A stretch of 64,000 nucleotides of DNA from a virus: IMG/VR virus record IMGVR_UViG_3300034685_000168, positions 1 to 64,000 of that record; one strand, 5' to 3'. The number at the start of each line of letters is the position of its first letter. Within the stretch, counting starts at the first letter, position 1. The translations under genes and the position numbers were made by a program. This document shows, one piece after another, positions 10,744 through 33,018 of the stretch. The notes beneath the pieces are model-generated. The model saw nothing but the letters and a program-made list of their open reading frames with translations. It was not told the origin of the DNA and ran no database searches.

Positions 10744-12192
10744 TTATTTTATATTGTTTTCTATACACCATGCTTTGTCAACTGGATCATCCATTAACCA
10801 ACTTTCCAATTGAGCAATTTCTTCATTACATGGTTTAATTTGATTGGATATTTTTCCATATTTCATGTCAGAAAACCCATAACATGGATGAAGTACTTTA
10901 AACTTTTCTTGTTCATCTCTTTCTTTGATTAATAAACCAAATAACTCATCTCCATCAAAATCTATGTTTGCATATTTTAATATTCTAGGAGATATATTAA
11001 TAGATTTATCATGTATATCTGTTTTAATTTCTGTTATACCTAATCCCATAATACTCAAAAACTGTAACACAGGATTTCTACCGAATATAGAAAATATACA
11101 ATGTTTATTTGATGTTAATGTTCTATGAGGAGATTCTTTAATTAAGATATGAAATATTTCATCTATTAACTCATTATAAGTTAATATACTATTTCTATAT
11201 AATTTCATAGCTTCATTAGTTTTATAACCATACCTTTTTGTTAAGATATTAATTATTTCTAATTTAAAAGAAGCAACTCCGATTTGCCAAGGAATTAATA
11301 ACTCATCACCATCGTGTTGATCTATTATTGGTGTAACAACTCCACGATATGTGAAGTGTAATCTAGATCCTAATATATTTTTTCTATTTAATCCTTTCTT
11401 TCCGTGAACTTTATTATAGAATACTTGGTATGAATATTCATAATATTTCTGATATATATTATTTATTTGTCTATCTATTTGAGATTGTTTAACAACATTG
11501 GTATTAATTTTAAATACTGTAATTGCTAATTCATTTATTGTATTGACAATATATTTAGATGTTGGATCAACTAACTTTAATTTTCCAACTACTGTCATTA
11601 TGTGTAGATTTCTATTTAGTATTGGTAATCTTTTTACCCATAAATTATTACCAAACAATTTTAAGAAATCCGATATTGTTTTTCTCTTTCTTTTTGGTTT
11701 ATATATATTTTCAAAAAAGTTTATTATGTAATCAAAATTTTCATAAAAATATTTGTAACCTTGACTCAATACTTCTGCTAAATCTTCTGGTAGATCGGCG
11801 TCTACATCCAATATCATATCTAGAATAGATTTTTTATTTACTCTACCTAACCAATTTTTTAAGATAGAATAAGCTCTTGGATGTAATAGAGGATATCCTA
11901 ATGCATCTTCTACATTGATCCATGTAGAAAAAGATAAATCATCACAAAATGCGGAAGTTGGTTTAGTTCCACATTTAGGACAAATTATATAATCAGAATA
12001 ATAATTACCATGTAAATATCCACATTTACAATGATTAATAAAATCTAATTCAGATTTATAATCACCAAATAACTCTTCAATCACATCTGTTATTTTAGCA
12101 GTATTAGAGCCAAGATCTAAATATTTCACAATATCAATAGGATTATTTTCTTTTTCATATTGATCATTAAATGGAAATATTTCTTTTTTCAT
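10744..12192 (-). CDS. RNA polymerase beta-prime subunit, N-terminal half, 482 aa
   Basis: Several beta-prime landmarks occur in the right order. A zinc-binding region has C55-x-C57 and C71-x2-C74 (CKCGY ... CPKCG), followed by LGYPLLHPRAYSILKNWL in place of the GHIELAxPVxHIWF segment. KNILGSRLHFTYRGVVTPI resembles the rudder-to-double-psi-barrel strand LLGKRVDYSGRSVI. GRNPVLQFLSIMGLGI resembles NRAPTLHRLGIQAF. The metal-binding loop NIDFDGDEL (DFDGD at residues 411-415) replaces NADFDGDQM. The protein ends about 65 residues later, so the bridge helix, trigger loop and C-terminal part must be encoded elsewhere, as in phiKZ-like phages whose polymerase subunits are split. The start follows AAGGACC. 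Confidence 0.85.
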   Translation of the reverse strand: MKKEIFPFNDQYEKENNPIDIVKYLDLGSNTAKITDVIEELFGDYKSELDFINHCKCGYLHGNYYSDYIICPKCGTKPTSAFCDDLSFSTWINVEDALGYPLLHPRAYSILKNWLGRVNKKSILDMILDVDADLPEDLAEVLSQGYKYFYENFDYIINFFENIYKPKRKRKTISDFLKLFGNNLWVKRLPILNRNLHIMTVVGKLKLVDPTSKYIVNTINELAITVFKINTNVVKQSQIDRQINNIYQKYYEYSYQVFYNKVHGKKGLNRKNILGSRLHFTYRGVVTPIIDQHDGDELLIPWQIGVASFKLEIINILTKRYGYKTNEAMKLYRNSILTYNELIDEIFHILIKESPHRTLTSNKHCIFSIFGRNPVLQFLSIMGLGITEIKTDIHDKSINISPRILKYANIDFDGDELFGLLIKERDEQEKFKVLHPCYGFSDMKYGKISNQIKPCNEEIAQLESWLMDDPVDKAWCIENNIK

Positions 12193-28967: not shown

Positions 28968-31115
28968 ATGAGTGACACTCTAAATCTTAACGCAGCCCTA
29001 GCTAGACTAGATAAAGATGATTATTTCAAAGAACCTGATAAAATTAGCACACCTATTACTAAAAGAGCAAAGGTTATTCTTGATCAGTTCGATAGACTAA
29101 ATGACGAAATTGGTCTTGCTAACACATCAACAGATACTGGTGCTTATGTCCTTAACCCAACACTTAATCAAGCTGGTATGGGTTTTGATGCTATTAATAT
29201 TGATCCTGTTTTTGATTTTGTTAAAAATTCAATTAGTGAATCTGTGAGACCTAATGCTAGATCTATCGCAGAACAGACACTTTATACTCTAAATAAAGTT
29301 ACTACTCATGGTGGTAAGTCAGCAGCATTTGCTCTTAACCTAAGTGATAACCCAATGAAAGTTAGTGGGTATAAATCTATTACACCTATTAATAACTCTT
29401 TCAATTTCCTTAAGCCAAATAACCAGTCTTTTGGTGTTGAAATTGATAAAGTTACTTCTGATATTAGAATGACTACTTCTGTGGATATTCTAAGATATCA
29501 TGCAAGTCTAACTCATAAACTTGTTCCTGTTATTCCTACTAAAGATGCTATTATTAGATTTATTAAATCTGATCCAGTTTTCTTTGACGATACTATTCAA
29601 AACAGCAATGAAGATAGTGATTACACTAAACTTGTTTATCTTTATGAAGATGATTCTTTAGTTAAACCTAATCTTCCTAGAGTTGAAGTTCTTGCTATTA
29701 ATGGAGAACCAGTTATTGAAGATGGTATTCTTGCTCCTGGTAAATTCGATCTTCTTAAACTAAGTCTTAATGAAAATAGACCTGGTTATGAATCATTCAA
29801 TAAAACTGATACTATTGCTGATTCTGTGTATGTAGAACATGTTGTAGTTCGTGTTTATGATGGTACAACTGAAGAATTTTTTAAAGTTGCCATTGGTAAA
29901 AATCGTGGTAGACTTTCTATGATGACTAATGCCGATGGCTCTAAAAGAATTTGTAACTACAATACTCAAGTAGCATTTACAGCTGAATCCAAAAAAGTCG
30001 ATGGAACCGTTTCGTCTATCTTTAGTACTGCTCTTGCTGCTGGTGAAGAAATTGTATTCGACCTGGCATTTAGTGTTGACATTCTTCTACGTAATGGACA
30101 GGGTAATTTCCTTCCGTCATTTACACCAATTAAAGCTGTTGGTATTGGTGGTGCTGCTCCACAGGCTCCTGCGGATGCTCTACTAGCACTTCTTCAAACT
30201 AATGCTAATGGTAATAAACTTACAGAATGGAAACCATTCGCAGAATTCTCTGAAGAAAACCTTTCCAAGTCTTCGTTGGAAGTTACTAACCTTATCAGTG
30301 AACCAACATATAATCTTCCTACTGGTACTAACTACTTCTATAGTGAAACCATTATGGACAATGTTGAATCTGATGCTTCAAGAGCAATGAGTGTTATCAA
30401 TGCTATTATTGATATTGGTCAGGGTGGTAAACTTATGGACGATATCTACACCACTCTTATGGAAACAGAAGCTAATGTTAAGATCGATGTTAATGGTAGA
30501 TATCAAGCTAATGGTTGGGATGATCTATTCGTCGCAGGTTCTAAAGTTCTACCTTTTGTTGCTACAGATGGTCTTGATGTTGCTGTACATAAAACTCTAC
30601 AACCTATCGATCTACCTGGTAACGTTAAGCAGGAAGCAGTTCAGAAACTTCTTGAACTAGTAACTAATATTCATCAGGTTACTAAATTCCAGCAGCAACT
30701 TGGTGGTTCCATGGCAAGATATAGAGTGTTCACTTCTGGTGATGTTCTTGGTCTTGTACTTGGAAGAAAATTTACCTATACTCATTTTGAAAATGGTTCT
30801 GAATTCATTGATGGTGGTGCTGGTTACAGACTTGTTCTTGATAACGACACAATACTAGAAATCTTTACAACTACTCAAGCTGATTACTCTGGTAAAATAA
30901 TTGGATTCCCTGTTGTAAGTGATAAAGAATCTGAACTTAACATGGGTGCATTTTATACATTTGGAACAACTGTTGGTCATTATACTCAGACAAGAAGAGA
31001 AGTTATCAACAGAATGGTTGCTAATACAAGAGAATCATTTATTCCTAAGAACCCTATGGGATTCGTTTGTTCTATTTCTAATGTATACCAGATTCTTGAT
31101 GCATACAGACCTTAA
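28968..31115 (+). CDS. Probable major capsid protein, 715 aa
   Basis: The call rests on context and expression signs. It follows a scaffold-like gene, is 715 aa (near the size of jumbo-phage capsid proteins such as phiKZ's), has a strong AAGGAG site, and has by far the most relaxed codon use in the window (CTT, GTT, GGT, AAC, CAG), typical of the most abundant virion protein. The C-terminal region (GHYTQTRREVINRMVANTRE) and a beta-rich middle are compatible with an HK97-type fold, but I cannot confirm the fold by reading. A strong terminator follows. Confidence 0.7.
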   Translation: MSDTLNLNAALARLDKDDYFKEPDKISTPITKRAKVILDQFDRLNDEIGLANTSTDTGAYVLNPTLNQAGMGFDAINIDPVFDFVKNSISESVRPNARSIAEQTLYTLNKVTTHGGKSAAFALNLSDNPMKVSGYKSITPINNSFNFLKPNNQSFGVEIDKVTSDIRMTTSVDILRYHASLTHKLVPVIPTKDAIIRFIKSDPVFFDDTIQNSNEDSDYTKLVYLYEDDSLVKPNLPRVEVLAINGEPVIEDGILAPGKFDLLKLSLNENRPGYESFNKTDTIADSVYVEHVVVRVYDGTTEEFFKVAIGKNRGRLSMMTNADGSKRICNYNTQVAFTAESKKVDGTVSSIFSTALAAGEEIVFDLAFSVDILLRNGQGNFLPSFTPIKAVGIGGAAPQAPADALLALLQTNANGNKLTEWKPFAEFSEENLSKSSLEVTNLISEPTYNLPTGTNYFYSETIMDNVESDASRAMSVINAIIDIGQGGKLMDDIYTTLMETEANVKIDVNGRYQANGWDDLFVAGSKVLPFVATDGLDVAVHKTLQPIDLPGNVKQEAVQKLLELVTNIHQVTKFQQQLGGSMARYRVFTSGDVLGLVLGRKFTYTHFENGSEFIDGGAGYRLVLDNDTILEIFTTTQADYSGKIIGFPVVSDKESELNMGAFYTFGTTVGHYTQTRREVINRMVANTRESFIPKNPMGFVCSISNVYQILDAYRP

Positions 31116-31164
31116 TTTATAAGTCCTCTTACCTTAGAATAAAGGTGATCGTTATAATACCTTA

Positions 31165-31200
31165 GTTATAGGATACGGTGTAAAAGCCGTATCCTATAAC
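31165..31200 (+). terminator. Terminator after capsid gene
   Basis: A 14-bp stem GTTATAGGATACGG/CCGTATCCTATAAC with an 8-base loop, about 50 bases past the capsid stop. It separates the capsid gene from the polymerase-like gene. Confidence 0.8.
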
Positions 31201-31265
31201 TTAAAATTATATATATTTATCATATTATATTTAAAAGAGATTTTTAATGAAAGAGGAGTTTAATT

Positions 31266-32966
31266 ATGTCTAATCAAGGAGAATGGGTAGTTGTTCATAC
31301 TTGTAGTTTTTTAACTAATAAACAAAATATAACTAAACCTATACCTAACTTTTACAACAATGATGTTAAGACATTGACTGAAGTTGTAAAATTAACTTTA
31401 CAAAATAATGTAACAGGAGAAGTTAAATCTAAATATATAGAAAATCCCATGAGAAGTTTCTATATAGCTAAACCACAATTTAGAGATCCTAATTCTCCAT
31501 ATTATTATAATTATAAAAAAGAAAATGAATCATTAGATAATTTAGATGAATATAAATGTATTAATAAAGATTTACCTATAGAAATTATGAAAGCATTAGG
31601 AGAATCAACATTCGGTTATAGAGGTCTTAGTTTAAAACAAGCATGTAATAGTCCTTATGTATATGGAGCCGATATACCACAAGAAGTTATATTTAAACAT
31701 GCTATTAATAGTAAAGTGGAACATGGGTTAAGTAAAATTAACACAGGTTTTCTCGACTTAGAAACTTCTGTATTACCTACCTCTAAAAATAAAGTAATTA
31801 TTAGTTCTTTCATAGATAATAATTATAATTTATATATAACAGTTTTAAAAGATTTTCTTCCTAAAGACTGGACAGAAGAAGATATTACTAATCATGTAAA
31901 AGAAAGACTTAAAAATGTTATATTGGATTATGGTTTAAAAATTACTATAGATTATTTTAAAACCGAAACTGAAGTAATCTTACATTCATTAAAACAAATA
32001 CATGAAAGTAATATTTGTATGTGTGGTATCTGGAATATAGATTTCGATATTCCACGTATTATAGAGCGATTACAGTTTTTAGGTGTAGATGTTAATATGG
32101 CATTTAACTCTCCTAAAACTCCTAAAAAATATAGATTTTTTCAATATTTAAAAGATCATGCTCAAGTCGCACATATTACAGATAAATGGCATGTTGCTGT
32201 CACTGGTTCTAATGTATTTTTTTATGATAGTATGTGTCTCTATAGTAGAGAAAGAAAGATTAAAGGAAGAGAGAAAAATTATCAACTTGGTTACATAAGT
32301 AGTATAGAAACAGATTTAACTAAATTAAGTTTTGGTAAAGAAAAAGGTCATTATGAAATGCAAAGTGATCCTAATAATTTCCCTGACTATATTGCTTATG
32401 GTGGACTAGATCCTTCATTATTACGTATAATGGAATCTAAGAATAATGATACTGTTGCATTAATAAGTGGATTAAATGATAGTAGAGTTCAAGATTATGC
32501 AAGAGCAACTGTATGTTTACGAGATGACTTATTCGCTTATTATAAAAAAATAAATAGGATAAATGGTTCTGTTGGTACTGCTGATGCTATGATGACTAAA
32601 TGGGATAAGTATATACCAGCAGTTGGTGGTAATGTATTAGATCCATCTTTATGTTTTGGTACTGGATTAAAATGTCTTAGAGAAGCACCATCTATAGTAA
32701 CCAATATAAGTAGAGCTGTATGTGATATAGATGTTAGTTCTATGTATCCTAACTTAAATATTACTTTTAATATTAGTAAGAAAACTAAATTATCTACTTG
32801 TATTTATATAGTAGATGAAAATAAAAAGAATTATGATTTAGTCCAATTTTTTAGTCATATAGTAAGTCCCCATGAAAATGCAGTTAGAATATGTAATGAA
32901 TATTTTAATTTACCTGATTATATACAAATGGAAAATATAGTAGATTCTATGTTAGAAAAAAAATAG
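31266..32966 (+). CDS. Family-B DNA polymerase, N-terminal part only, 566 aa
   Basis: Exonuclease motif I FLDLETS (D164, E166) and motif II IWNIDFDIPRI (N257, D261) are present. Polymerase motif A appears as DVSSMYPNLN (D489), followed by NISKKT, which matches the NISPET region of T4 gp43. The protein stops at residue 566 before motifs B (KxxxNxxYG) and C (YxDTD). At the expected exonuclease III position, Y-x3-D reads Y411ARAT415, so the Asp is lost. A terminator follows at once, so this is not a local frameshift. It is either one half of a split polymerase or a degenerate paralogue. The start follows AGAGGAG. Confidence 0.75.
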   Translation: MSNQGEWVVVHTCSFLTNKQNITKPIPNFYNNDVKTLTEVVKLTLQNNVTGEVKSKYIENPMRSFYIAKPQFRDPNSPYYYNYKKENESLDNLDEYKCINKDLPIEIMKALGESTFGYRGLSLKQACNSPYVYGADIPQEVIFKHAINSKVEHGLSKINTGFLDLETSVLPTSKNKVIISSFIDNNYNLYITVLKDFLPKDWTEEDITNHVKERLKNVILDYGLKITIDYFKTETEVILHSLKQIHESNICMCGIWNIDFDIPRIIERLQFLGVDVNMAFNSPKTPKKYRFFQYLKDHAQVAHITDKWHVAVTGSNVFFYDSMCLYSRERKIKGREKNYQLGYISSIETDLTKLSFGKEKGHYEMQSDPNNFPDYIAYGGLDPSLLRIMESKNNDTVALISGLNDSRVQDYARATVCLRDDLFAYYKKINRINGSVGTADAMMTKWDKYIPAVGGNVLDPSLCFGTGLKCLREAPSIVTNISRAVCDIDVSSMYPNLNITFNISKKTKLSTCIYIVDENKKNYDLVQFFSHIVSPHENAVRICNEYFNLPDYIQMENIVDSMLEKK

Positions 32967-32979
32967 ATTAATATTATTA

Positions 32980-33016
32980 ACTTATATAAGAGGGAATAAA
33001 ACCCTCTTATATAAGT
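32980..33016. terminator. Bidirectional terminator
   Basis: A 15-bp stem ACTTATATAAGAGGG/CCCTCTTATATAAGT with a 7-base loop and T-run, between the convergent polymerase-like gene and the 129-aa gene. Confidence 0.85.
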
Positions 33017-33018
33017 TT

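Follow-up and report, generated by a model that had tools for sequence, protein, structure and literature searches.

A gene beside the major capsid gene of a phiKZ-like phage record probably encodes the exonuclease subunit of a two-gene family-B DNA polymerase

The window analysed here is a 64,000-base stretch of DNA, bases 1–64000 of a 107,638-base virus record, of which the remainder was also read. On the plus strand, positions 31266–32966 hold a genuine ATG-to-stop open reading frame of 566 amino acids, with a product made up of an N-terminal domain, a 3'-5' exonuclease domain and the first part of a palm domain. The major capsid gene (28968–31115) lies just upstream (the initial annotation had pointed out a neighbouring capsid gene), and the 31266–32966 gene is followed by a hairpin with a 3' T-run (-22.2 kcal/mol, z = -6.4), the stability of which was equalled by none of 200 shuffled sequences. 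The features of the locus are listed below.

31250..31258, plus strand: Shine-Dalgarno-like AAAGAGGAG, read in the sequence, with the ATG 7 bases further on
31266..32966, plus strand: putative N-subunit of a two-gene family-B DNA polymerase; open reading frame with matches to phrog_3011, PHIKZ082 and RB69 gp43
31749..31766, plus strand: exonuclease motif I, FLDLET (D164, E166), invariant in 12 homologues
32031..32048, plus strand: exonuclease motif II, WNIDFD (N257, D261), invariant in 12 homologues
32397..32411, plus strand: exonuclease motif III, YGGLD (Y378, D382), invariant in both homologue sets (12 and 20 sequences), aligned with YNIID of RB69
32496..32510, plus strand: YARAT, residues 411–415, not motif III; not conserved, 33 residues past YGGLD
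32724..32750, plus strand: polymerase motif A, DIDVSSMYP (D487, D489, Y494, P495), invariant, aligned with DLTSLYPSI of RB69
32979..33017, plus strand: transcription terminator-like hairpin of 16 bp, starting 13 bases past the stop codon, between convergent genes

A 516-residue stretch of the product matched PHROG 3011 ('DNA polymerase'; E = 2.4e-86), covering profile positions 35–562 of 576. Because this match runs nearly to the end of the profile, the protein is not truncated relative to its homologues and is a complete member of the family. The homologue in phiKZ is PHIKZ082 and that in SPN3US is gp44; the corresponding protein of phage JM-2012 is itself annotated as similar to SPN3US ORF44. 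A tblastn search with the protein matched 297 phage records, the majority from phiKZ-like jumbo phages. Searches of the phage collection, IMG/VR and GTDB genomes found no close relatives, the best identity to any relative being 33%, and the family is without any conserved stretch of 7–10 residues. No Pfam match was obtained for the gene, and PF00136 matched nowhere in the 107,638-bp record; these models are silent because the split polymerase family is too divergent for them, and the identification was made from PHROG families, a profile-to-PDB search and a fold search. In the profile-to-PDB search, the family profile matched RB69 gp43 at E = 4e-22. An AlphaFold2 model of the protein alone, built from a 20-row alignment, was confident over the exonuclease domain, and its best PDB match in the fold search was again RB69 gp43 (E = 5.5e-14, probability 1.00). 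The palm part of the model (residues 479–549) had pLDDT values below 50; a bad model would be expected of a half-palm modelled alone, and is not proof.

We examined the catalytic motifs in a 12-row alignment of the window's protein with 11 proteins from named phages, and in another set, of 20 sequences mostly from IMG/VR, in which the same residues of exonuclease motifs I–III and motif A are invariant. The initial annotation had recognised exonuclease motifs I and II and motif A, all of which were located, and had reported that motifs B and C are missing; both are indeed absent from the 31266–32966 frame. It had also read YARAT as a motif III without its aspartate, and here the motif had been misassigned: the family profile aligns Y378-GGL-D382, not YARAT, with YNIID of RB69 gp43. 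Judged from these alignments, the set of proofreading residues in the N-subunit is complete and exonuclease motif III is intact.

A frame carrying motifs B and C, which the initial annotation had proposed to look for in the full genome, was found at 88597–90825 on the minus strand of the full record, outside the window. This C-half gene lies 56 kb from the N-half gene on the opposite strand and encodes 742 amino acids, although the true start is probably Met19, which follows GAAAGGG and gives a product of about 724 amino acids. A hairpin, read by eye, follows the gene. Residues 48–729 matched PHROG 2927 ('DNA polymerase') at E = 4.4e-100, the gene was also recovered by genome search, and the protein is homologous to PHIKZ050 and SPN3US gp18. 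Motif C is present as SDTDS (D418-T-D420) and motif B reads KIRVNTLPG. Across 12 aligned C-halves, the residues R125, K129, Q151, K155, N159 and G163 of the fingers and motif B are invariant, as are D418-T-D420 of motif C, K498 and Y500. We take the conserved residues to correspond to the dNTP-binding R482, K486, K560 and N564 of RB69 gp43, and the motif C aspartates presumably correspond to its D621 and D623. The C-half profile aligned with RB69 gp43 (E = 9e-9) over the fingers and motif B region (435–592 of RB69 gp43) and over residues 705–759. Modelling of a related C-half gave a poor result (mean pLDDT 60.6).

The relationship between the two genes was defined using phrog_262, the profile of the full-length, one-piece T4-type polymerase (856 positions). 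In the 107,638-bp record it matched four stretches, which lie only in these two genes: profile positions 109–325 and 392–427 in the N-half, and 442–610 and 564–817 in the C-half. These stretches are complementary, so the two genes fit together; between them, the two proteins keep the conserved residues of exonuclease motifs I–III and motif A, the Lys and Asn of motif B and the DTD of motif C. The junction, between profile positions 427 and 442, is within the palm and precedes the fingers, which bears out the initial annotation's suggestion of a polymerase divided in the palm between two genes. Searches with PF00136, PolA, PolIII alpha and phrog_262 found no other polymerase in the open-ended record, and thus no second, complete enzyme, for which a check had also been proposed.

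The alternative offered alongside it was a captured, non-catalytic polymerase paralogue next to the capsid gene; a paralogue of this kind might, for instance, serve in structure or regulation. Such a reading would account for a frame without motifs B and C and for its position adjoining the major capsid gene. It is not supported: neither motif A nor any of the four exonuclease carboxylates has been lost, none of them varies within the family, and the record contains no complete polymerase; the presence of the complementary half in the same record also speaks against it. Furthermore, neither of the homologous SPN3US proteins, gp18 and gp44, was detected in virions (PMC5694885). We consider a captured paralogue highly improbable.

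The division into two genes is a property of the whole group. Both halves are separate genes in phiKZ, PBS1, JM-2012, pEa_SNUABM_54, RisingSun, MarsHill, phiR1-37, SPFM17, EL, AerS_266, PhiEaH1 and Goslar, and in the metagenomic relative G001; together with the window's record, these 12 named phages and G001 make up the 14 phiKZ-like records in which both halves were sought, and all 14 carry them separately. This count leaves out Vibrio phage henriette 12B8, a T4-type phage with a weak match and the sole non-phiKZ member of the searched set. An N-half match was found in 15/15 records searched and a C-half match in 13/13 named phage records searched, as well as in the window's record. Across the 13 records for which it was computed, the distance between the halves ranges from 1.8 kb to some 100 kb, and the two genes may or may not share a strand. 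Fusion to a C-half was seen in none of the roughly 45 N-halves inspected, motif C is absent from all 33 further IMG/VR N-halves (one of which has an interrupted frame that does not reach motif A), and 20 complete IMG/VR C-halves are separate frames too. In a tree of N-halves, the window gene sits on a long branch near the metagenomic contig G001, outside both the cluster of phiKZ, SPN3US-type and EL sequences and that of PBS1, MarsHill and phiR1-37, with exact placement weakly supported.

A one-piece polymerase truncated by a recent frameshift, a deletion or an assembly error would also leave a frame that stops shortly past motif A. Where the break lies throughout the family refutes this explanation: homologous proteins stop at the same point (the profile is matched to position 562 of 576), and in the IMG/VR N-halves about 60–100 amino acids follow motif A. 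The terminator after the stop codon, which the initial annotation had placed within 15 bases and had taken as a sign against a recent frameshift, is also at odds with truncation, as is a C-half encoded on the opposite strand at a distance of 56 kb, with its own start, ribosome-binding-like sequence and terminator. We regard truncation as effectively excluded.

Further interruptions were observed within individual halves. The C-half of Yersinia phage phiR1-37 (AJ972879.2, 109849–112172) is annotated as two genes, g167 and g164, separated by short frames, and this polymerase may be in three pieces or intron-bearing; in MarsHill, the gap corresponding to that in the phiR1-37 C-half is annotated as an exon junction. 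In Escherichia phage Goslar (NC_048170.1, 79690–83182), the N-half is interrupted near its end, with the last 80 profile positions 1.7 kb downstream, past a NUMOD1/HNH gene, and this interruption is probably an intron.

The surrounding record is phiKZ-like, with 24% G+C over its 107,638 bases. Matches were found to PhiKZ_MCP (E = 7e-9) and divDNAB (E = 1e-66), and phiKZ-type multisubunit RNA polymerase pieces are present that are likewise split over separate genes:

10744–12192 of the window, minus strand: RNA polymerase piece
67571–69112 and 79760–80992 of the full record, minus strand: RNA polymerase pieces

The phiKZ-type capsid, the multisubunit RNA polymerase pieces and the divergent DnaB are hallmarks that the window's phage shares with phiKZ-like phages. 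The record has no terminal repeat and an open reading frame runs off its right end, so that it is probably a fragment. No match to the phiKZ gp054 nuclear shell protein was found here or in a further four records, but none of these was a positive control, so the negative result carries no information. Three tRNA genes (Asn, Gln and Leu) lie at 1295–1734 of the window on the minus strand, and a GroEL-like chaperonin gene (phrog_5725, E = 3e-28) lies at 94426–96174 of the full record on the plus strand. The N-half directly follows the major capsid gene in the window (28968–32966); in several phiKZ-like phages, it stands beside a divergently oriented gene of ~430 amino acids that is often annotated as a virion protein.

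The pair was compared with known polymerases. The phiKZ-like split polymerases (082 and 050 of phiKZ, gp44 and gp18 of SPN3US, and that of OBP) have the same subunits, break point and catalytic residues. The window's pair is only about 20–29% identical to the proteins of the named phiKZ-like phages, and it differs from most of the group in motif B (KIRVNTLPG here, K-x3-N-x-x-S-G there) and in exonuclease motif III (YGGLD here, YNI-x-D there). RB69/T4 gp43 has the same fold and motif order and is the nearest solved structure by profile and by fold, but is one chain of about 900 amino acids rather than two. The 43A and 43B proteins of Aeromonas phages 25 and 44RR also form a two-chain family-B enzyme, for which co-purification and polymerisation have been demonstrated (PMC2988022), although they belong to a different lineage from the window's pair.

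The initial annotation had pointed to the split gene 43 of T4-like phages as a relative. As a T4-type split, the gene would be one of a 43A/43B pair, broken by a homing endonuclease or an untranslated insert, and the polymerase family and the idea of a two-chain enzyme are indeed the same (PMC2988022). The assignment was nevertheless wrong. The N-half matches the phiKZ-type phrog_3011 at E = 2e-86, compared with 4e-12 for the 502-position family phrog_2062. Taking henriette 12B8 as the one example of a T4-type split, the break there is inside the fingers, with the first fingers helix in the first chain, and the two genes are near neighbours, whereas here the break falls before the fingers and 56 kb separates the two oppositely oriented genes. 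A T4-type split is therefore extremely improbable for this pair.

We propose, with a probability of about 0.96, that the window gene encodes the exonuclease/N-palm subunit of a phiKZ-type heterodimeric replicative DNA polymerase, an activity predicted from sequence. The N-subunit would supply the N-terminal domain, the full 3'-5' proofreading site (D164, E166, D261 and D382) and the metal-binding aspartate of motif A, D489. From the C-subunit would come the thumb and fingers, together with motif C (D418-T-D420) and the residues of motif B that bind dNTP. Translated separately, the two proteins would then fold together, placing the proofreading site wholly in the first chain and building the polymerase site from residues of both, with D489 from the first and D418, D420 and the dNTP-binding residues from the second. 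We infer that the two chains are expressed, assemble and act jointly in this lineage.

Published work on related phages is consistent with this proposal. A DNA polymerase with split subunits, originally recognised in OBP, has been described for SPN3US gp18 and gp44 (PMC5694885; PMC5105663), and in phiKZ the genes 050 and 082 each carry the label DNA polymerase and each gave phenotypes on silencing (PMC12571901). For the two-chain family-B enzyme of phage 25, 43A and 43B co-purify with polymerase activity (PMC2988022). The divergence of the phiKZ-type split polymerase from other family-B enzymes has also been described (PMC7544198; PMC7824862). An additional role for the N-subunit by itself, such as free exonuclease activity or a control function, with the permanent two-gene state serving regulation, seems unlikely.

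The two-gene arrangement is already published for OBP, SPN3US and phiKZ and is ordinary for this phage group, and the picture of phiKZ-like phage replication is unchanged. The novelty is confined to a deeply diverged member of the phiKZ-type split polymerase. It adds to the evidence for an old and stable split, the one-gene version being unseen in any member examined, and it extends the published phiKZ-like split polymerase to a deeply diverged, very AT-rich lineage.
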